Shown here: positions 2,607 through 18,759 of the stretch, one piece after another
How the letters are laid out: every line of letters begins with the position of its first letter
Position numbering within the stretch: the stretch's first letter is position 1
NCBI RefSeq assembly: GCF_000588875.1
Contig: NZ_JEMV01000027.1
Coordinates: 2,325 to 66,324 of the forward strand
Direction of reading: 5' to 3'
Source: Sphingobium sp. Ant17
Lineage (GTDB): Bacteria > Pseudomonadota > Alphaproteobacteria > Sphingomonadales > Sphingomonadaceae
DNA: 64,000 bases
Notes under the pieces: model-generated
Told to the model about the DNA's origin: nothing
Database searches by the model: none
Seen by the model: the letters and a program-made list of their open reading frames with translations, nothing else
Made by a program: the position numbers and the translations under genes

Positions 2607-2810
2607 CTATTGCATTTTGCGCGCAATGATCCGGATGGCCATGAGCATGTGATCTTGCACCTGTTCGAGCGACATGCTCTCCCTTTGCGCAATCTCGACA
2701 TAACTCAGCCCCTCCACCTGACTGGCGAAAAAGACCCTATAGGCCTTGGGCGGCAGTTTCTCGATTGCCGCCTGCGCCTTGGCATGTTGGGCATTATCGG
2801 GCGTCGTCAT
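2607..2810 (-). CDS. sigma-70 region 4-like small HTH protein
   Basis: The 67-residue protein consists of little more than one sigma region-4 helix-turn-helix: LPPKAYRVFFASQVEGLSY, then VEIAQRESMSLEQVQDHM and a basic tail IRIIARKMQ. It lacks region 2, so it cannot be a complete sigma factor. It is probably a DNA-binding accessory regulator of the mobile region. Start ATG 2810 has GGAGG 6 nt upstream. It overlaps the 3' end of the ardC-like gene by 17 bp, so the two are co-transcribed and likely coupled. Confidence 0.75.
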   Translation of the reverse strand: MTTPDNAQHAKAQAAIEKLPPKAYRVFFASQVEGLSYVEIAQRESMSLEQVQDHMLMAIRIIARKMQ

Positions 2811-3720
2811 CGTCGCCTCCTGTGTCGCTGACGAAGTTCAGCAGATAGTCGGCGGCCTTGCTGGCCTGACTGGCGGCGCGAAAGATCGCCTTGCTGTCTT
2901 CGCGCAGGACCGAGAGCCATGCGCCCAGATAATCGGCATGGCGCACGGTCGGTACGATGCCGAGTTCCGCACACAGGAAGGCGCTGGCCATTTCGGCGAT
3001 CAGTTCCTCGCGCGCATAGGCGGGGCTACCAAAGCCGCTGTCGGGCAGGCGATCCAGCCGCAAGCGATGTCCGGTCCAGTGCCCTAGTTCATGCAGCGCG
3101 GTGCGATACCAGTTGATGGGTTCATGAAAATGTTCGGGCCGGGGCACGCGGATATAGTCGTCCTGCGGGGCATAATAGGCCTCCCCGCCGCCGATACGGA
3201 TATCCGCGCCGCTTGCCGCGATCAGCACCTCCGCGCGGGGCATGGAAATGGCCGGGTTCCATGTCGCAACGGGATCAGCCGATGGCGCGACGTCCAGTCC
3301 CTCGCACTGGTCGATGTTGAAAACGGTAAAGCGCTTCAAAAAGGCAATCTGACGCGGTTCGCCATCCGGTCCGATGCGTACAGTGTCGCCATCCTTGGGC
3401 GTGAACCTGTCGGCATAACAGACAGTCGTGCCCTGCTCCCCCTTACGCACATTGCCGCCCAATGCCTGCGCCTGCCGGTAGGTCAGCCAGCGCTGCGAAC
3501 CATAGCCCTGCTCGAACAGGCGGTGCCACAGGATCAGCACATTGATCCCCGAATAGCGCCTGCCGGTCCCGCCGTTGCGCGGCAAGCCCAGCGCCGCCTT
3601 GCCGTTATCCCATGGCCGCACCCATGGCAGGGTGCCTTCCTCCAGTTGGGCAATGATCCGGTCGGTCACCTCACTATAGAGGGTCGCGCCGGTGCGTATG
3701 GTCTTGTCCTGATACTCCAT
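2794..3720 (-). CDS. ArdC-family antirestriction protein
   Basis: The 308-residue protein has the ArdC layout. An N-terminal single-strand DNA-binding domain (about 5-130) includes LPWVRPW and the GGTGRRYSGINVLILW block. A C-terminal zinc metallopeptidase domain has HELGH at 210-214 with a downstream EELIAEMAS glutamate as likely third ligand. ArdC proteins protect incoming conjugative DNA from host restriction. Start ATG 3720 has AGGAG upstream; codons further upstream run into the leader and do not resemble the family. The gene sits behind a leader that is shared with the parB-like gene, which suggests common control on entry of the element. Confidence 0.93.
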   Translation of the reverse strand: MEYQDKTIRTGATLYSEVTDRIIAQLEEGTLPWVRPWDNGKAALGLPRNGGTGRRYSGINVLILWHRLFEQGYGSQRWLTYRQAQALGGNVRKGEQGTTVCYADRFTPKDGDTVRIGPDGEPRQIAFLKRFTVFNIDQCEGLDVAPSADPVATWNPAISMPRAEVLIAASGADIRIGGGEAYYAPQDDYIRVPRPEHFHEPINWYRTALHELGHWTGHRLRLDRLPDSGFGSPAYAREELIAEMASAFLCAELGIVPTVRHADYLGAWLSVLREDSKAIFRAASQASKAADYLLNFVSDTGGDDDDAR

Positions 3721-3763
3721 GACCTTTCTCCTTCCCGCATCGCACCGGCGCCGGAGTGGCGGG

Positions 3764-3904
3764 GGTGGGCGGCAGGAGCGAACCGGCAGGCTCCCCGACA
3801 GAGGCGGGCCGCACCCGCAAGGGCCGCAACGAACAGTGGAGGAGTTGGCGCGAAGCCCAACTTGCGGCACGTCGCGGGGGGACTAGAGGGTAGCGACGCC
3901 CACC
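3764..3904 (-). promoter_or_regulatory. structured leader (copy 1) upstream of ardC
   Basis: This stretch, 44 nt before the ardC start, repeats the leader of the parB-like gene in three blocks: 3764-3791 (26 of 28 bases equal to 5978-6005), 3806-3844 and 3883-3903. Its two ends pair, ggtgggcg (3764-3771) with cgcccacc (3897-3904), and an inner stem gttgg/ccaac lies at 3844-3861. A conserved, end-closed element before two co-functional genes fits a cis-acting RNA or a large operator. The remaining intergenic part, 3905-4135, shows nothing I can support. Confidence 0.6.
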
Positions 3905-6114: not shown

Positions 6115-6375
6115 ACCGCTTGGCCGGGACCGGCCCACGCCATCGCCCCAAGCGATGTCCGCCAGTGATCCGCTAAGGATCGCGCGTCAGCGATCAAAAC
6201 CCGGCAGGGCCGAGACAGGCGAAGCAGGCTCGGTGGAGCGCAGCGACATAGAGCGCGGCCCAAAGGGGACGCCCAGACAGCCCCCAAGCAAAACAGCTAT
6301 CCCTTGCCTGCTCCCCACAAGACAGGCCATTGTCCATACGGCGGTCGATACCGCATCTGGGGGGATAACAAGGCC

Positions 6376-7272
6376 ATGGCCTTTGGCGTTTTCATTCATC
6401 GGTCAGACTCGATCTACGACGACAGCCCGGCCGAACGCTATCAGTTCCCCGCCCAATATCTTGGCCGGGTCTCCGCCTGCATCCATGACTGGATCGTCTA
6501 TTACGAACCTGTGAAGGTCAGCGGCACCCGCGGCTATTTTGCCATAGCCAAAGTCAGCCAGGTCATTCCCGATCCCAAGGCGCCCGGCATGTATATCGCC
6601 ATGATCGAACCGGGCAGCTATCTTGAATTTGCAAACGCCGTGCCCTTCAACGGTCCCGACGGCCTGGCAGAGCGCGGCCTCCTCAACGAGGCCGGCAAGA
6701 TTTCCGGTCGCGCCCAGGCGGCGGTGCGCCCCATCTCGACGGCTGACTTCAACCATATTCTCGATCTCGGCCTGGACGAGCATGCCCCGCTCCTGCCACG
6801 CGTCGATGACGTGACGCCGCCCCTCTTTCAGGATGAGGCCATGCCCTTCCTCGCCGAGCAGGAGCGCCGCCGCACGACAACGCTTGTTTCCAGAATCGAG
6901 CGTGACCGCGTTTTCCGCCGTGTCGTGCTGCGCGCCTATGACGAGCGCTGCGCCATCACGGGCCTCAAGCTCATCAACGGGGGCGGCAGAGCAGAAGCGG
7001 AGGCTGCCCACATCCGGCCAGTCGAAGCCAATGGCCCCGACAGCGTCCAGAACGGTATCGCCCTGTCCGGCACCGTCCACTGGATGTTCGACCGGGGGCT
7101 TATCAGCCTCTCGGACGATCTCGACATCATGATTTCCCGTCAGGCCAATGACAGCGACAGCATCACGGGCCTTATCAACAAGAGCCGCCGTGCCACTCTT
7201 CCAATCCGCGCAGCAGACCGGCCACACCCCCATTTCCTGGCCTGGCACAGGGACAATGTCTTCAAGCTCTGA
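6376..7272 (+). CDS. HNH endonuclease with N-terminal sensor-like domain
   Basis: The 298-residue protein has an N-terminal domain (about 1-115; MAFGVFIHRSDSIYDD and HDWIVYYEP) that resembles modules found with restriction-like HNH proteins. The C-terminal HNH_2 domain carries AAHIRP (H212), N226 of VQNGIAL and H235 in TVHWMFDRGLISL. The zinc cysteines common in HNH folds are missing apart from C192. I chose ATG 6376 because homologous proteins start with this F-x-H-x-x-D-S pattern; an upstream in-frame ATG at 6304 would add 24 unrelated residues. It is probably a type IV-like or accessory nuclease of the island. Confidence 0.85.
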   Translation: MAFGVFIHRSDSIYDDSPAERYQFPAQYLGRVSACIHDWIVYYEPVKVSGTRGYFAIAKVSQVIPDPKAPGMYIAMIEPGSYLEFANAVPFNGPDGLAERGLLNEAGKISGRAQAAVRPISTADFNHILDLGLDEHAPLLPRVDDVTPPLFQDEAMPFLAEQERRRTTTLVSRIERDRVFRRVVLRAYDERCAITGLKLINGGGRAEAEAAHIRPVEANGPDSVQNGIALSGTVHWMFDRGLISLSDDLDIMISRQANDSDSITGLINKSRRATLPIRAADRPHPHFLAWHRDNVFKL

Positions 7273-10001: not shown

Positions 10002-10433
10002 CTATCGCCCTGCCAGCAGCTTCCGAGTGGCATCATCCCGTACACCGGAAAACCAGCGGTCCAGCGCGGCGCTAAAAAGGTCACCACCGCACGCCGATTC
10101 GAAAAGAGTAAGGGATGATCGCAGCTTCACGGCGTCTACTTCGCCAAACACCCCGGCCGCACTGTTGCCAAGGGGCAAAGCCTGTAGAGTTTGTACGCAT
10201 TCCCGCAACCGCGCGCCGAGCGTAATATGCTCCAAATACGCCACCGCCTCATCCAGCGACGCGATGGCATAATGCTGCGCGATATGGCTGCGGCCCAGAC
10301 CGGCAAGCTGCGGAAATATGAACCACATCCAGTGGCTGGTTTTTCTGCCCCTGTGCAGTTCGGCCAGTGCAATGCCGTAAGCGTCACGTTGGGCCTCGAT
10401 GAAACGCATCAGATTGTGGCATTCAGTAGTCAT
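10002..10433 (-). CDS. DUF1810 family protein
   Basis: The 143-residue protein has the family core: FIEAQRDAYGIALAELHRG, then KTSHWMWFIFPQLAGLG and YAIASLDEAVAYLEH. Length matches the family (about 140). Function is unknown; some members lie near macro-domain or stress genes. ATG 10433 is the start that fits the family N-terminus; the ribosome site is weak and an upstream in-frame start is possible. Confidence 0.9.
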   Translation of the reverse strand: MTTECHNLMRFIEAQRDAYGIALAELHRGRKTSHWMWFIFPQLAGLGRSHIAQHYAIASLDEAVAYLEHITLGARLRECVQTLQALPLGNSAAGVFGEVDAVKLRSSLTLFESACGGDLFSAALDRWFSGVRDDATRKLLAGR

Positions 10434-10771
10434 CCGGCTATGACGCTGTGGGGGCCAGGTCGTTCCCCATAACTGGAATGCGCCCATTGTCGCCATTACG
10501 CTACCCTGCGGCTTGACCGGGAAGCTGCCGTTCGCTCGGCAGATAGCGCTGGTGGCGAGCGGGTTGGCCTCTTTACGCGACCGCACTGTAACCTATCCCT
10601 TTCACGCTGGGCGGCGAATAGCTCGATGACAATTTACTGGAATTCGGAAAGACGGACACGACTGGAGGCGCCGAACTTGCCTTAACGATGTCCTTTTCAA
10701 TGTTTGTTTCGGATGCGCTGCTCGCTAACTCGTGTTAGCCCACAAGTATTCGACGAGCATGGGGGGACAAT
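10434..10771. other. 338-bp divergent intergenic region with an inverted repeat
   Basis: No gene is supported here. The segment separates the DUF1810 gene from the nitrilase-like gene. A perfect inverted repeat, gctaac-tcgt-gttagc (10724-10739), lies 33 bp before the nitrilase-like start and could be an operator. A G run at 10761-10766 is the likely ribosome site for the TTG start. Confidence 0.45.
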
Positions 10772-12583
10772 TTGCAGGTTATCGAATCCGAGTCGCACCT
10801 TAAGCCCGTAAACGGGATGCTCACGCTTCGAATCATCCAGAAGCATTCAGACACCGACCTGCTCGGCTCCCGCGATAAGTTCCGGACCGCACAGCGCCTC
10901 GAGAATGTGAGCGATGCGGAAGTCACTGAATTTTCTGAGCGTCTTGACCAGACCAGGCAAGGTGACCTTGCGGTGCTGTCCTTTCACCGCGGCATTGCGC
11001 ACAATCGCGAGAAGCTGCGGCAGTTGAGCGAGGATCGAACGATCGTGACGCTCGGTGGCGTGGATGCACAGCATCGTAACCTTGCGTTTATTGCCATGGA
11101 CGGCGTGGTGACCGAGCAGGAGAAGCTCTCACTTGCCTCAGAGGATCAGTTCGATGCGGTTGTAGCCGGTGACAAAATGCATTTCTTCAATGGTGCCGAC
11201 ATTGACGCGGTGAGATGGGCGGTACTTAACTGTCACGACTATACTCATGCCGATCTGATCGCCGAGCTTCTCGAGCGGCGCGTGGAACTATTGGTAGTTG
11301 TCACCTACAATAACGCTACTCAGCTCTACTGGGATTATGCTATCGCGGATATCCATCGGCTGTTCTGCTACGTCGTTATCGTTAATATCGCGGAGGTTGG
11401 CGGATCAGGGGTCTTTGTCCCGTTCCGCCGGGTCGGGACCGGCGACAACGCTTTTTTTCGCGCTGCCGGGCAGATTTTCTCTACCCGTGGGCCAGCCGAG
11501 ACCGTTGCGAGCCTGCCGCTGGACATCGGCGAACTGCGACGGCTCCGCGCGGAATACCGGTTGAAGGGGCTTTCGGGTCCTAAGGGCATGGGCAGCGAGC
11601 GCTATGCGCCGATGGCTCCCTCAGAGCATTTCATGGACACCTTTGATAGGCCCGCCGGTGCCCCAGCGGTGGAGGGCGTGCGGCAGATAAATCTAGCTTG
11701 GAATAGCGACGACCCCTTAGTGGCAGTCGGACAGTTGGCCTCCATGTCTGTCGAGTCCTACGTGGCAAGCCGCTATCGGCTGTCGCAGGCGGCAGGTGTT
11801 GAGCTCTTCGAGGCGAGGGTTGCCGCACATCTAGAGCATCTAGAGGTGCAACTTAACCTGCGTCCTGAGGGCGACCGGCGGCTTGATTTCCTTGTGCTGC
11901 CTGAGGTTTTTGTTCCACGAAGTTTTGTGGCTTCTCATATCGAGCCCTTTGCCGCGCGCAATGGCACGATCGTCATATGCGGCATCGATTATCCCGGCAT
12001 CGAGGAAGCTGATAACCGCAACTCTTGCATGGTGATCGGTCCAAACGGTCTCGCCGCCACTTACGACAAGATCACGCGCTCACAATATGACGCGATGGGT
12101 GCGACAGATAGGATGCAGATGCATCGCGGCGATAGTCTCTACCGCTTCGTCAACGCCGCCGGCCACGCATTCGGCATCCTGATCTGTTACGACTTCAGTC
12201 ACTTCGATCTCGTGCACCGGCTCAATGGCGAGTCCCGCGACCATCCGCTTGAGGTCCTGTTCGTCGTGGCACACAATCCGTTTGGGTCGCTGTACCGGAC
12301 GTGCTGCATCGCAGACTCTCACCGCTTCTACCAGCATGTCGTTCTGTGCAACGTCTCGCAATATGGTGGGAGCGGTGTATTCGCGCCGATGCGCAGCGGG
12401 GGCGCGCGGCAGACGTTGCTCGAAATTGGCCTAAACACCGAAGCGATCGGCCTCACGAAACTGAAGTTGAATGAACAGCGCGAAGCGCGCGGCGTCGATG
12501 ATGATGAGAAGCTGCAGCAAGGAAAGTTCATGCGCCGGCCCGGCACATTCCAAGGCAAACCCGCGCACCTCGGATGCGGATGA
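10772..12583 (+). CDS. tandem nitrilase-like (CN hydrolase) protein
   Basis: The 603-residue protein contains two nitrilase-fold units. The C-terminal unit (about 340-560) has the full triad: E378 (FLVLPE), K433 (TYDKI) and C472 (GILICYDF), then SQYGGSGVFAPMR. The N-terminal unit (about 60-260) repeats the pattern: K118, C154 (VLNCHDYTH) and AEVGGSGVFVPFR, but its glutamate position reads LSFHRG. Known nitrilases hydrolyse nitriles or amides; the substrate here is unknown. The start is TTG 10772, with GGGGGG 5 nt upstream and no family-like ATG. It precedes an HNH nuclease gene by 27 bp, so a two-gene defence cassette is plausible. Confidence 0.8.
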   Translation: MQVIESESHLKPVNGMLTLRIIQKHSDTDLLGSRDKFRTAQRLENVSDAEVTEFSERLDQTRQGDLAVLSFHRGIAHNREKLRQLSEDRTIVTLGGVDAQHRNLAFIAMDGVVTEQEKLSLASEDQFDAVVAGDKMHFFNGADIDAVRWAVLNCHDYTHADLIAELLERRVELLVVVTYNNATQLYWDYAIADIHRLFCYVVIVNIAEVGGSGVFVPFRRVGTGDNAFFRAAGQIFSTRGPAETVASLPLDIGELRRLRAEYRLKGLSGPKGMGSERYAPMAPSEHFMDTFDRPAGAPAVEGVRQINLAWNSDDPLVAVGQLASMSVESYVASRYRLSQAAGVELFEARVAAHLEHLEVQLNLRPEGDRRLDFLVLPEVFVPRSFVASHIEPFAARNGTIVICGIDYPGIEEADNRNSCMVIGPNGLAATYDKITRSQYDAMGATDRMQMHRGDSLYRFVNAAGHAFGILICYDFSHFDLVHRLNGESRDHPLEVLFVVAHNPFGSLYRTCCIADSHRFYQHVVLCNVSQYGGSGVFAPMRSGGARQTLLEIGLNTEAIGLTKLKLNEQREARGVDDDEKLQQGKFMRRPGTFQGKPAHLGCG

Positions 12584-12610
12584 CGGAATTCGAAGCAGCT
12601 AAAGGACGGC

Positions 12611-13414
12611 ATGACGGTGGGACGAAACTGGATTCATTTAGCCGGGGTAATCTGGCCTCTGCTGACCGAGGCAGGAAGCGCTGGAGAGACGCTAACCTAT
12701 ACCAAAGTTGCTCCTACCATCGCGACAAACCCGCTCAGTGTCGGGCTCGCACTGGGGCCCATCCAGACATACTGCATGGAGAATCGCCTTCCACCTTTAA
12801 CGGCGGTCGTAGTCGGGAAGAACAGCGGGATGCCTGGCGGCGGGTTCGTAGCTTGGGATGTTGATGACCTGGCGGCGGCCCTGTCCGCGGTTGCGGCCTA
12901 TAATTGGGAACTGATTGGCAATCCGTTTGCTGGCTTCGGAGCAGAAGACACCGAGGACACCTTCGCCGAGGCGCTGATCGACGATCCAGGCAACGCCGTC
13001 GATGTGTACCACCGAGTCCGCGACCGCGGCATGGCACAACGTATTTTTAGGAGGGCGCTGCTGCTCGCGTACGATGAGCGCTGCGCCTTCTGTGGCTTGG
13101 CCTTTCCAGACGCGCTCGAAGCGGCTCATATTGTGCCCTGGAGCAGTTGCGAGCCAGCGCAACGGCTCGACGTGCGCAACGGCGTACTACTTTGCGCGTC
13201 ACATCACCGGTTATTCGACCGCAACATCATGTGGCTGCAGGACAACTTCCTTATTACTTACTACGACCCGGAGGAAAAGGACGGCCGCTATCGCAAGGTG
13301 GACCGAGCTTTCACCATCGCGCTCCACGGAAGCAACATCCGGTTACCGAAGGACCCGACACATCATCCTGACTCGGCGAATTTACGCCGCCGCTTGGCAC
13401 TCGCGGCAAAGTGA
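12611..13414 (+). CDS. HNH endonuclease paired with nitrilase-like gene
   Basis: The 267-residue protein has a C-terminal HNH_2 nuclease domain: C158-x2-C161, H173 of AAHIVPW, N190 of VRNGVLLC, C195 and the SHHRLFD histidines at 198-199. The N-terminal domain (about 5-110; LTYTKVAPTIA, GPIQTYCMENRLPPLTAVV, GKNSGMPGGGF) resembles a small alpha/beta module found with other HNH proteins. All residues of a zinc-bound HNH active site are present. ATG 12611 has AAAGGA 4 nt upstream. The 27-bp gap to the upstream gene and the same orientation indicate an operon. Confidence 0.85.
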   Translation: MTVGRNWIHLAGVIWPLLTEAGSAGETLTYTKVAPTIATNPLSVGLALGPIQTYCMENRLPPLTAVVVGKNSGMPGGGFVAWDVDDLAAALSAVAAYNWELIGNPFAGFGAEDTEDTFAEALIDDPGNAVDVYHRVRDRGMAQRIFRRALLLAYDERCAFCGLAFPDALEAAHIVPWSSCEPAQRLDVRNGVLLCASHHRLFDRNIMWLQDNFLITYYDPEEKDGRYRKVDRAFTIALHGSNIRLPKDPTHHPDSANLRRRLALAAK

Positions 13415-13687: not shown

Positions 13688-14020
13688 ATGGCAACACCTA
13701 CAATTATCGAAATCCCGCATAATCTCGGCCGCGACGAAGCAAGGCGCCGCATGGCCGCGGGTATAGGCAAGCTGGCCTCCCATATCCCAGGCGGCGCGGC
13801 CACCGTCACCCACAGCTGGCCCAGCCAGGATCAATTGTCTCTGACCGTCACGACCATGGGCGTGGAGGTGCCCTGCACCGTTGATGCGCAAGATACTCGT
13901 CTGCGGGTGACCCTGCAATTGCCGGCCATGCTCGGCCTTATGTCAGGACCGATTAAAGCGATCGTTCAAAAACAAGGTGAGCGGCTGCTGCTCGACAAAA
14001 AGCCCGATCAAACGGCCTGA
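13688..14020 (+). CDS. polyhydroxyalkanoic acid system family protein
   Basis: The 110-residue protein matches the PHA granule-region family (PF09650 type): IEIPHNLGRDEARRRM near the N-terminus, then SWPSQDQLSLTVTTMG, and a C-terminal AMLGLMSGPIKAIVQKQGERLL. The family is encoded near PHA synthesis genes in some bacteria, but none are near here. Its molecular role is unknown. The ribosome site is weak. Confidence 0.85.
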   Translation: MATPTIIEIPHNLGRDEARRRMAAGIGKLASHIPGGAATVTHSWPSQDQLSLTVTTMGVEVPCTVDAQDTRLRVTLQLPAMLGLMSGPIKAIVQKQGERLLLDKKPDQTA

Positions 14021-15014: not shown

Positions 15015-15893
15015 TCAGCGATGCCGCTCACAAGCCGTGATGGAGAGGAAGGCGGGTTCCCCATATCCGCCATAGACGTCGCTTAGTAGCCAAGCGCGTT
15101 CAGCGTCGCGGTCCTGCTCTGCGATGCTTCTCCACCAGAAGCGCATGGTGGCGTCCCAGCGATACCCGCGAGATTTCAGCCGGTCCTTGGCATCGAAAGG
15201 AGCGTCGATGGCATTCACCCTATAGGTCTGCTGTTCCGAGCAGGCGATCAGCTTTGCCAGGATCGTCTCTCCATCCGGAAGGCCGTGAGAAAGAAGATAC
15301 AGAAGCGCCAGGATGTCGTTTTCTGCCCTGTGCCCTTCATAAAACCAGCCGCATTGCGAAACGAGATGCGCCAAGGCCCGCCCCTCGAACCCAAGCTCGA
15401 GCCAATCCAGCTCAGCCATCGAGCAGGCCCAGGGCTTGCCGGCGATGGCAGGCAAGCGACGATCCACGAACGGTCTGTCGAAGGCGGCATTGTGCGCGAC
15501 GATGATGTCGGCGGAGGAGAGAATGTCGATAGCGACCGATTCGTCGATCTGCTGCTCCGCAACGTCCGCATCGGCAAGACCGGTCAGGCTGGTAATTTTC
15601 GGATCGATCGGCATGCCGGGATCTTCACGCCAGACCCGGGGCACCCCGACCTGGATGATTCGTCCACGCTCATCGAACCGAAAACGCTGGATCGCCAGTT
15701 CGATGATCCGATCGGTCTCACGGTTGAGCCCGGTTGTCTCCACGTCGATCGCAACCCCGATACGGCTGGATGCCTCAGGACTTGCTGCATGAAAATGGGT
15801 GACGGGGCCAAGGCGCCGCTGCACCCGATAATCTGGATGCATGCCCAGCAGGCGTGCCGCCTGCGCGTCGCGATCGCTTGCAGCGTCGTTCAT
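15015..15893 (-). CDS. DnaQ-like 3'-5' exonuclease
   Basis: The 292-residue protein has the DEDDh exonuclease motifs: DVETTG (Exo I, about residue 50), AHNAAFDRPF (Exo II) and the GHRAENDI segment (Exo III, H-x4-D). The last 75 residues (from about 218) form an extra domain with KSRGYRWDATMRFWWR and WLLSDVYG, as seen in island-borne exonucleases. Its start is 16 bp after the repaired stop of the RES toxin gene, so all three minus-strand genes may be one operon. The substrate could be DNA or RNA. Confidence 0.88.
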   Translation of the reverse strand: MNDAASDRDAQAARLLGMHPDYRVQRRLGPVTHFHAASPEASSRIGVAIDVETTGLNRETDRIIELAIQRFRFDERGRIIQVGVPRVWREDPGMPIDPKITSLTGLADADVAEQQIDESVAIDILSSADIIVAHNAAFDRPFVDRRLPAIAGKPWACSMAELDWLELGFEGRALAHLVSQCGWFYEGHRAENDILALLYLLSHGLPDGETILAKLIACSEQQTYRVNAIDAPFDAKDRLKSRGYRWDATMRFWWRSIAEQDRDAERAWLLSDVYGGYGEPAFLSITACERHR

Positions 15894-15909
15894 CTGGCGG
15901 CGGCTCCGC

Positions 15910-16631
15910 TCATGCGCCCTCTACCACCCTGAACACAGCGCCGCTTCCCGCATCCCGAACAAGATCGACCCGTTCGCCGTTCCAGTGATAATCGATATGC
16001 CGACCTGAACGGGGTTCGAGGCGCAGTCCGGATAGAATAGCGCAACACACTCACCACCCCGCTGCCGGACGCTCGGATAGACGACACCGTCCGAGCCTGA
16101 ACTGCGCAGCGTCGCGGCGAGCTGCTGCGCCGCTTCGTAGCTGTCAGGATCGAGGCAAGGGCCCAATGCTGCTACATCCGCTCTGAGATCATGCAAATCG
16201 GCATCGACTTTCAGAATGATCTCCCGAAACTGCGATGTCCATCCGGCAGGCTCGGCCGTTCGGGCCATGAAGCTTGCATGATGATGGATCGTCTCGAACA
16301 GCGCTGTCTCATAGTTGCGCGCGACATAGAGTACGCCATGATGTCCGGCCGAGAACCGGCTTGGTCGATCGGGACTTACATGAGTGAATGACGCCATGAG
16401 ATAGGAGGCGCCAACGCCGCCGACCCGTCGCGCGGGAGGGACAAGATCGATATTGCCAACCGACGTCATGATCCGCGGATTTGTCTTCTGCTCGGCGGAG
16501 ATGAGGAGGGGCCAGTCTGCAGGGTCCGCAATGTCCTCGAACAGATCTATCGGAGGATAGATGCTGCGGATGATCCTGACCGCCCCCTCCCAATGGACCC
16601 TGTTGACCGGCGGACCATCAGTCACCGTCAC
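15910..16631 (-). CDS. RES-domain toxin (frameshifted near C-terminus as read)
   Basis: The protein has the RES fold: an RIIRSIYPP segment, a YETALFETIHHH helix and SDGVVYPSVRQRGGECVALFYP. Family members destroy NAD+ by phosphorolysis. As read, the frame after NPVQVG diverges and ends at 15921. One added base near 16000 gives the expected HIDYHWNGERVDLVRDAGSG and a stop at 15910-15912. The start is GTG 16631 within the antitoxin stop (GTGA overlap), the usual coupling of such pairs. Confidence 0.85.
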
Positions 16632-17041
16632 CAGCCGCCACGCTCCGCGTCCAAATAGCGCCGCACCCGCATGATGTCGGTCAATTCGCCGCCCAGCATG
16701 ACGGACAGCGCGCTTGCGCCATCAAAGACGGCGTTGGGCGCCTTCATCCAGTCATAGCCGCGCTGCGGCTCCTCAAAGATGATTCGCAAGGCCTTGTGGA
16801 TGCCCATGAGGTTGGACAAGCGCGCAAGGCCGTCACGCGAGATGCGGCCCGCCCCTTCAGCCTTCCACCGACGGAAGCTGCGCAAAGGCATATCGGTCAG
16901 CATAGCAGCTTGCTCGTCCGTGACGCCCCACTTGGCGAAAAGATTGAGGGCCGCACGAAACATCGCGCCGCCTTCATCCTGCGTGACAGGCTCAGGCCGG
17001 AACGGAGCTGGAACCGTCTCAATGGGTTGCAACATCATCAT
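16628..17041 (-). CDS. Xre/MbcA/ParS-type antitoxin (DUF2384)
   Basis: The 137-residue protein has an N-terminal Xre-like helix bundle (MFRAALNLFAKWGVTDEQAAMLTDMPLRSFRRWK) and the C-terminal antitoxin domain that binds RES toxins (ALRIIFE through VFDGASALSVMLGG and MRVRRYLDAERGGW). It neutralises the RES protein and represses its own promoter. Three consecutive Met codons begin the gene; ATG 17041 has GGAG 7 nt upstream. It is the first gene of the operon. Confidence 0.92.
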   Translation of the reverse strand: MMMLQPIETVPAPFRPEPVTQDEGGAMFRAALNLFAKWGVTDEQAAMLTDMPLRSFRRWKAEGAGRISRDGLARLSNLMGIHKALRIIFEEPQRGYDWMKAPNAVFDGASALSVMLGGELTDIMRVRRYLDAERGGW

Positions 17042-17049
17042 AAAGCATC

Positions 17050-17089
17050 TCCAATTGGCATTATATAAACAAATGATGCCAAATGGCAA
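17050..17089 (-). promoter_or_regulatory. xre-res promoter with palindromic operators
   Basis: On the minus strand TTGCCA (17084-17089) and TATAAT (17060-17065) form a near-consensus pair with 18-bp spacing. The -35 lies in a perfect palindrome, tgcca-aa-tggca (17077-17088). A similar half-conserved site, tcca-at-tggca, overlaps the other side at 17050-17060. Sites flanking the -10 suit autorepression by the antitoxin. Confidence 0.6.
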
Positions 17090-17324
17090 TATCGACATTC
17101 AGCGAGCCATTTCGCAAAAGCGCCGATTATGCGTTTAAAAGCACCCAGCACCCTTCTCACACCTGTTTCGATAGCGCCGTCCTAACCTCGCCTTGCTTAC
17201 CCTTTCAGCCACCGGGAGCAGGCCAAACAGTCGTTCCAATATTGCATCATCTTCGCCCGCTGGTTCCACGCTCCTTGGACAAAGCAGGTTTAACTCGGCA
17301 CTCGACCATAACGGTGGTGCTTCC

Positions 17325-18511
17325 CTAGCTTCTGGCAGCGCCATCCAGATAGTCCGACCAGGCCTGCATCATCGCTACTCGCTCATCCCAATATTCTCCG
17401 CGCGCATAAGCGCGCCTAACCGCGTCCGCCTCAGCGTGCGCCAACTGGCGTTCGATTGCATCGGGATGCCACTTGCCCATCTCGTTGAGCAATGTGCTCG
17501 CCATGGCTCGAAAGCCGTGACTCGTCATTTCATCGCCTGAATAGCCCAACCGTCGAAGAGCGCCGTTCAGCGCATTTTCGGACATGGGCCGCTTTATGGA
17601 CTGGAAGCCGGGAAACACATATTTACCCGTCCCGGTGACCTCCCTGATGGAAGACAGGACGGCAAGTGATTGCCGCGAAAGCGGGACGCGATGTGGGCGC
17701 CGCATCTTCATTTTTTCCGCAGGATCGACCATAACGCCTTGTCGAAATCGATCTCCAACCATTCGGCATGGCGCAATTCGCCAGGACGAACAAAAACATG
17801 CGGAGCCAGCCGCAAGGCGGCTCTCGTCACCGCATGACCGTCAAAACCATCAATCGCACGCATCAGCGGCCCGACCTGCTGGCTGTTGGTGATGGCAGCC
17901 AAATGCTTCACCCTTGGTGTCGTCAGAGCGTCGCGAAGATTGGCGGACAGATCATGCTCTGCCCTCCCAGTTGCGATTGCGTAACGAAACACTCTGCCGC
18001 AGACGCTCCTCAGTCGTCTGGCAGTTTCATGTCGGCCTCGCCCTTCGACCTCCCGCAAGACAGCAAGGAGTTCCATACTCGTGATCTCGCTCATTTTGCG
18101 ATCGCCCAGGCTGGGGTAGGCAAATTCGAGAAGCCATTTGATCTTGCCGATGGTGACATCCCCAAGTCCTTCCCGTTCTCGCTTGGCGAGCCACTCCTCG
18201 GCAACGGTGCGAAAACCAGTGGTCGCCTCGAAGGCTTCCTGGGCTTCAATTTCCTTTCGCATTGCGGTGGGATCCGAGCCGGCCGCCAAGAGCTTGCGGG
18301 CTTCCTCTCTTTTCTCTCGCGCCTCCGCCAAGGTGATCAATGGGAAGACGCCCATCGCCATCGTTTTGGCTTTGCCATCGAAGCGATAATTCATGCGCCA
18401 GTAGCGACCGCCTTGTGGCGTCACCAACAGATAGAGACCATGCCCGTCCGCGAGCTTGTAGGGCTTGTCTCTCGGCTTTGCCTTGGACAATGCGAGGGAT
18501 GAAAGTGCCAT
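17325..18511 (-). pseudogene. tyrosine integrase, frameshifted as read
   Basis: The gene encodes a P4-type integrase of about 395 residues. The N-terminal DUF4102 arm-binding domain (KPRDKPYKLADGHGLYLLV) starts at ATG 18511. The catalytic domain has the first Arg in VRPGELRHAEW, then HGFR and the Tyr in YARGEYWDER, with QLAH between. At about 17722 one C seems to be missing: ALWSI runs into a stop, while the next frame continues PAEKMKMRRPHRVPL. All catalytic residues remain, so this is either a sequencing slip or recent decay. It lies beside the tRNA-Leu 3' end. Confidence 0.88.
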
Positions 18512-18561
18512 GAGGGTATCTCCTGCGGCCCTGTTGGCCGATACCCGCAAAGATACCCTCA
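18511..18561. repeat. GATACCC inverted repeats before the integrase gene
   Basis: A perfect 10-bp inverted repeat, tgagggtatc (18511-18520) and gataccctca (18552-18561), frames the integrase upstream region, with a third copy of gataccc at 18540-18546. Such sites could bind the integrase arm domain or a directionality factor. Confidence 0.4.
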
Positions 18562-18672: not shown

Positions 18673-18759
18673 TGGTGCCCAGAAGAGGACTCGAACCTCC
18701 ACGACCTTGCGATCGCCAGCACCTGAAGCTGGTGCGTCTACCAATTCCGCCATCTGGGC
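18673..18759 (-). tRNA. tRNA-Leu (anticodon CAG)
   Basis: On the minus strand the acceptor stem GCCCAGA pairs with TCTGGGC, followed by A and encoded CCA. The anticodon arm CCAGC-TTCAGGT-GCTGG gives anticodon CAG. The long variable arm and GGTTCGAGTCC T-arm are typical of leucine tRNAs. Length is 87 nt with CCA. Its 3' end faces the integrase, so it is the probable attachment site of the island. Confidence 0.95.

Follow-up and report, generated by a model that had tools for sequence, protein, structure and literature searches.

The window, the whole stretch of 64,000 nucleotides of Sphingobium sp. Ant17 DNA that was analysed, carries a gene for a tandem nitrilase and a gene for an HNH_2 nuclease on the same strand, with an intergenic gap of 27 bp. 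These two genes and the features around them are located as follows.

10002..10586, minus strand: DUF1810 gene, the divergent left neighbour (profile match)
10772..12583, plus strand: tandem nitrilase gene (ORF with TTG start, 603 aa)
10976..11251, plus strand: active-site region of the N half of the nitrilase, with F71 at the Glu position, K118 and C154 (triad incomplete)
11903..12187, plus strand: catalytic triad of the C half of the nitrilase (E378, K433, C472)
12611..13414, plus strand: HNH_2 nuclease gene (ORF with ATG start, 267 aa)
13688..14020, plus strand: PHA_gran_rgn family gene, the right neighbour (profile match)
17325..18550, minus strand: tyrosine integrase, frameshifted into two overlapping ORFs
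18673..18759, minus strand: tRNA-Leu (cag), probable integration site

The coordinates, strand and spacing of the two genes, read from the ORF positions, agree with the original prediction, and the sequence feature itself, a two-unit nitrilase beside an HNH nuclease, is confirmed. The position of the TTG start is roughly consistent with the starts of relatives. Scans for promoters and terminators returned nothing on the plus strand and no more than expected by chance.

The nitrilase consists of an N half (approximately residues 16-262) and a C half (approximately residues 313-566). The two halves match each other by BLASTP (E=4e-19, 33% over 150 aa) and the PADLOC model RTasNitrilase matches each of them separately in a six-frame search (E 6.8e-22 and 1.4e-9), which bears out the claim of two units. 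The Pfam family CN_hydrolase gave no match to the window protein at E 0.1; among three relatives scanned it scored 39.1 bits in L013 (cut-off 23.2) and stayed below the cut-off in L002 and L047. In an AlphaFold2 model with a mean pLDDT of 67, the C half is predicted to adopt the alpha-beta-beta-alpha nitrilase fold (Z 21.8 to 2e11, rmsd 3.2, 233 aligned, residues 312-598). The fold comparisons mainly span residues 310-600, and thus bear on the C half and barely on the N half. The structural neighbours among the best 50 of each listing are metabolic amidases and related enzymes, of which the library mostly consists, and such PDB comparisons do not separate defence from metabolic nitrilases; the absence of DRT1 (9yfd) from the best 50 of either listing excludes nothing.

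The catalytic triad of nitrilases is composed of Glu, Lys and Cys. Residues were counted in nine members including the window protein; the copy in G927 (L044 3190-5309) was left out, as it is divided into two frames and contains a stretch of N in one part. In the C half, Glu378, Lys433 and Cys472 are kept in all nine aligned members, and C472, singled out beforehand for mutation, is indeed the invariant Cys. For the N half, the triad positions were set by motif alignment of the halves with each other, and a full triad was found in none of the nine members. The position of Cys154 is Cys throughout (9/9), the Glu position holds Phe or Tyr in the three proteobacterial members and Glu in the six Bacillota members, and the Lys position holds Lys in the former and Gln in the latter. 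The N halves of the two lineages have therefore lost different parts of the triad. In a FastTree phylogeny of 18 halves, N and C halves formed two separate groups across phyla, the N halves being united with a support of 1.000, so that the doubling predates the split of the two lineages sampled. Across phyla, the identity to the window protein amounts to 27-31% for the N halves versus 41-44% for the C halves.

The search of the PADLOC models yielded scores of 117.7 bits for RTasNitrilase (E=1.5e-34), 71.3 bits for UG5-nitrilase (1.5e-20), 63.2 bits for CARF_nitrilase (4e-18) and 54.1 bits for Drt1a (1.6e-15). Each of the nine members scanned, eight relatives plus the window protein, matched the same six PADLOC models, with RT-associated, UG5, CARF and DRT1 nitrilases as best matches. 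In NCBIfam, which includes metabolic nitrilases, the window protein reached 24.9 bits at best, and the best E over the nine members was 1.1e-5. PADLOC is without metabolic nitrilases, and the scores therefore go no further than to show that the protein is related to the immune branch. A sequence search of the PDB with the window protein gave a single chain, DRT1 9yfd, at E=0.018.

Similarities and differences to the known systems were compared. Like the window protein, DRT1 (UG1) and UG5 have a sequence-related nitrilase part with a catalytic Cys, and the best stretches of the window protein on the DRT models fall in their C-terminal nitrilase part. However, DRT1 and UG5 contain the RT domain in the same protein, whereas the window protein has no RT and carries a second, degenerate nitrilase unit instead. 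In PMC13275509, DNA synthesis by the RT of DRT1 is described to activate the nitrilase effector, with DNA adducts driving dormant filaments that keep the nitrilase dormant until infection frees it. The systems tested in PMC9122126 include an RT-nitrilase of UG5 that comes with a transmembrane protein. The best match of the window nitrilase, the RTasNitrilase model, is with 397 positions too small to contain an RT, compared to the 603 aa in two units of the window protein. The name of this model suggests that it represents an RT-associated nitrilase. We considered an RT partner encoded on the same contig and rejected it, as RVT_1 gave no match on the contig that carries the nitrilase in five of five genomes tested, which cover five of the ten loci, the Bradyrhizobium plasmid being outside this set. 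In the PADLOC system CARF_m7--CARF_nitrilase, the nitrilase part matches the window protein, but the best stretch spans only model positions 306-388 of 457, and the roughly 15 residues before the first unit are too few for the CARF domain. A CARF module in the nitrilase was accordingly rejected: the best PADLOC stretch lies on nitrilase positions only, and no Pfam domain was found at E 0.1.

Tandem nitrilases are rare in the collections searched, which came to 2000 genome searches in samples that overlap and a single motif-limited scan of genome_contigs, besides the plasmid, phage and viral sets. Within the order, one of 396 genomes besides the window's own encodes a near-full-length relative (G304, 56%) and eight others gave partial matches only, while a phylum sample of 398 genomes searched at E 1e-20 returned the own genome only. 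One tandem nitrilase was present in 72,556 plasmid records (Bradyrhizobium, 51%), none in a phage record, and none in the viral contig collection in two scans with nitrilase alignments. The pattern scan of genome_contigs identified two Syntrophomonas MAGs; being based on no more than two short motifs of the N half, it may have missed many. Including these two, 7 of 63 genomes of the Syntrophomonas class carry a tandem nitrilase (the match in G927 begins at model position 71), and a sample of the phylum to which these MAGs belong (2/299 genomes) contained the same two.

The three proteobacterial loci (window, G304 and Bradyrhizobium) were all judged to lie on mobile or defence-type DNA. In G304, this DNA begins near a tRNA-Val and contains an integrase, a PDC-S06 candidate defence ATPase and a type I specificity-like gene; the next gene after the nitrilase, approximately 110 bp on, is a convergent integrase. 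The Bradyrhizobium nitrilase is located on a conjugative plasmid together with an HNH effector-like gene, a UvrD-type helicase and then GajB. The helicase (L011 16205-19621), 4.4 kb downstream of the nitrilase, has RTasHel as its best PADLOC match (4.8e-68), a point against the stand-alone reading of the nitrilase. Separately, a protein of 128 aa that matches no Pfam family (L011 9574-9960) overlaps the start of the Bradyrhizobium nitrilase gene and is a possible partner there.

In the seven Syntrophomonas-class loci, the nitrilase is found among ordinary genes (transporter, secD/F, regulator, peptidase) and not in defence islands. The 15 neighbours scanned across these loci include PhzF-like, UPF0014, transport permease, LysR, TetR, M48 peptidase, MFS, SecD/F and tRNA nucleotidyltransferase genes, and three have no Pfam match. 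These contexts are the chief result against a defence role; the lack of a relative in the viral contigs and phage records also counts against it. In G901, a gap of 2 bp separates the nitrilase from a same-strand ABC transporter gene with a cNMP-binding domain upstream (L045 1140-3329), and in G900 a same-strand LysR regulator gene precedes it by 17 bp. These direct upstream genes suit a metabolic role; the five remaining loci of the class show neither of the two arrangements.

The pair had been described as part of an integrase-bounded island. This holds on one side, where a tyrosine integrase adjoins the tRNA-Leu; its frame is broken, which may point to a stranded element (or to an error in the assembly), and the second boundary was not found. 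A second copy of the tRNA-Leu 3′ end was detected neither in the window (up to 3 mismatches) nor in the assembly (up to 1 mismatch), and a proof of the island by att sites was hence rejected. The left part of the window harbours an IS110-type transposase, a HEPN-nucleotidyltransferase, ArdC, ParB and a second HNH_2 gene, and the right part an exonuclease, a RES-Xre pair and, next to the tRNA-Leu, the broken integrase. The HEPN-nucleotidyltransferase fusion and the ArdC-type antirestriction protein are encoded at 1598-2536 and 2794-3870, both on the minus strand. The second HNH_2 protein (6304-7272, plus strand, 322 aa) resembles phosphorothioate-dependent restriction enzymes in its C-terminal part (104.6 bits, cut-off 180). 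The RES toxin/Xre antitoxin pair and the DEDDh-type exonuclease beside it occupy 15015-17098 on the minus strand. This block is 89% identical on a replicon of Sphingobium sp. RAC03 that is without the nitrilase-HNH pair, and the homology starts at 13815, past the HNH gene; the block is therefore independent of the pair. DUF1810, MucR and PHA_gran_rgn near the pair are not defence genes, and the region is thus mixed.

The claim of an HNH nuclease is likewise sound, since the C-terminal domain of the second protein matches HNH_2 in Pfam with 52.7 bits (cut-off 21), and H173, the other residue proposed for mutation, is the His of the AAHIVPW motif. Residues 1 to approximately 115 match no Pfam family at E 5, the PT-DNA_restrict score of 57.9 is far below the cut-off of 180, and the structure predicted from the single sequence was too poor to use (pLDDT 38.8). 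For the link to the nitrilase, the HNH protein was compared by tblastn (E up to 1) with the nine other tandem-nitrilase loci and extra flanks of G304. It adjoins the nitrilase in none of the nine; the contig of G901 ends 333 bp past the nitrilase, so eight loci are informative downstream. The check for conserved adjacency of the two families across genomes, which had been suggested with the original prediction, thus speaks against the pair as one system, and a conserved nitrilase-HNH operon was rejected. The only tblastn match, in Bradyrhizobium, is weak (54 aa, E=0.004) and corresponds to an HNH protein of another type on the same strand, 1.2 kb upstream of the nitrilase.

Homologs of the HNH protein were also sought at large. 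In the family, 58 of 199 genomes match, the own included; apart from the own gene, the listed matches start at residue 93 or later, and one match in a separate BLASTP starts from residue 63. In the class, five of 337 genomes (own included) pass 1e-12, the others starting at residue 75 or later. At 80% coverage, none of 104 plasmid records and none of six phage records matched. None of the sets searched (199 family genomes, 337 class genomes, viral contigs, phages and plasmids) thus yielded a full-length relative, and the pair could consequently not be seen twice. The N-terminal 115 aa match 14 plasmid records and 3 phage records, and gave weak matches (E 0.002-0.01) in 9 of 239 family genomes besides the own. 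On some plasmids this domain is also a separate small protein, annotated as such in four of the five stretches opened. In one of these five (L059), the protein lies beside DUF262 and EVE genes, in another, genes for a DNA methyltransferase and an HNH protein lie within a few kb of the domain, and in the remaining three no DUF262, EVE or methyltransferase neighbours were seen. Two plasmid proteins (L059 3902-4330 and L057 3968-4480) share the domain at approximately 30% identity, with LPPLT and PG.G motifs. The N-terminal domain is a possible new reader domain. As in the HNH type IV enzymes (ScoMcrA-like SBD-HNH, wH-HNH), the HNH domain of the window's HNH protein (HNH_2) is C-terminal, and the length of the whole protein is within the range of 224-283 aa that PMC11037411 gives for wH-HNH enzymes. 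It differs from the type IV enzymes in that the N-terminal 115 aa lack a Pfam domain and the PT-DNA_restrict score remains under the cut-off. Taken together, the protein would be an independent reader-plus-HNH nuclease, possibly modification-dependent and type IV-like.

We tentatively favour, at a probability of about 0.43, a one-gene reading: the nitrilase would be a stand-alone amidohydrolase from the clade of defence nitrilases, one half of it being a regulatory pseudo-enzyme, and the HNH nuclease would be an independent neighbour. The original interpretation as a whole is in part supported: its link to immune nitrilases stands, with all nine tandem nitrilases matching PADLOC defence nitrilase models and all three proteobacterial loci on mobile or defence-type DNA, and the two-gene nitrilase-HNH system is not supported. 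That the two genes form one immune system, in which the nuclease is gated through a signal that the hydrolase produces or detects, appears improbable. The short gap on one strand and a Shine-Dalgarno-like AAAGGA before the HNH start would agree with it, as would the similar GC3 of the two genes (67.4 vs 67.2%), a value of 64 to 86% in ten other genes and also within 2 points in three neighbours, and the different HNH protein upstream of the Bradyrhizobium copy. Yet this HNH protein is adjacent to no other tandem nitrilase, has no full-length relative in the sets searched, and contains an N-terminal domain that is elsewhere a protein of its own. Among the papers listed in a literature search limited to open-licence PMC papers, the nitrilase-HNH pair was not found as a described system; one paper names both the nitrilase of DRT1 and the HNH of a retron, but as parts of different systems.

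A stronger competitor, quite conceivable even if we lean away from it, is that the tandem nitrilase is metabolic cargo, an amidase or nitrilase hydrolysing or detoxifying an amide or nitrile nutrient and without an immune role. The ordinary chromosomal surroundings of the seven Bacillota loci, the transporter and the LysR gene directly upstream in G901 and G900, and the metabolic amidases among the structural neighbours, albeit from a library mostly of such enzymes, all point this way. Against it, the defence nitrilase models score far above any NCBIfam model, the proteobacterial copies share their mobile or defence-type setting (3/3), and no transporter or pathway gene was recognised adjoining the nitrilase in the window. 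A defence role of the tandem nitrilase is tentatively inferred.

Nitrilases need contact between subunits. For the stand-alone nitrilase with a pseudo-enzyme half, the N half may pair with the C half inside one chain and thereby replace the contact between subunits. It might restrain the C half or sense a ligand, and with its triad lost and its Cys kept it could bind one. Upon infection, the C half would hydrolyse a small molecule that the cell needs at a C-N bond and so halt growth, by analogy with the proposal for the nitrilase of DRT1. The HNH protein would be a separate nuclease, perhaps of type IV with an N-terminal reader, that landed in the same island. A broader proposal, which we regard as rather unlikely, is an RT-independent branch of nitrilase immunity, in which the pseudo-half senses infection and releases the active half to deplete an essential metabolite; it would be common to the proteobacterial islands and the Syntrophomonas relatives and locally joined to an HNH nuclease in the window.

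A nitrilase of about 600 aa that lacks an RT and combines a live centre with a dead one would make the search for the substrate simpler, and would likewise simplify tests of how activity is controlled by the pairing of units. That one lineage has lost Glu and the other Lys, while all nine members retain Cys, is a testable hint that the dead half may still bind something.
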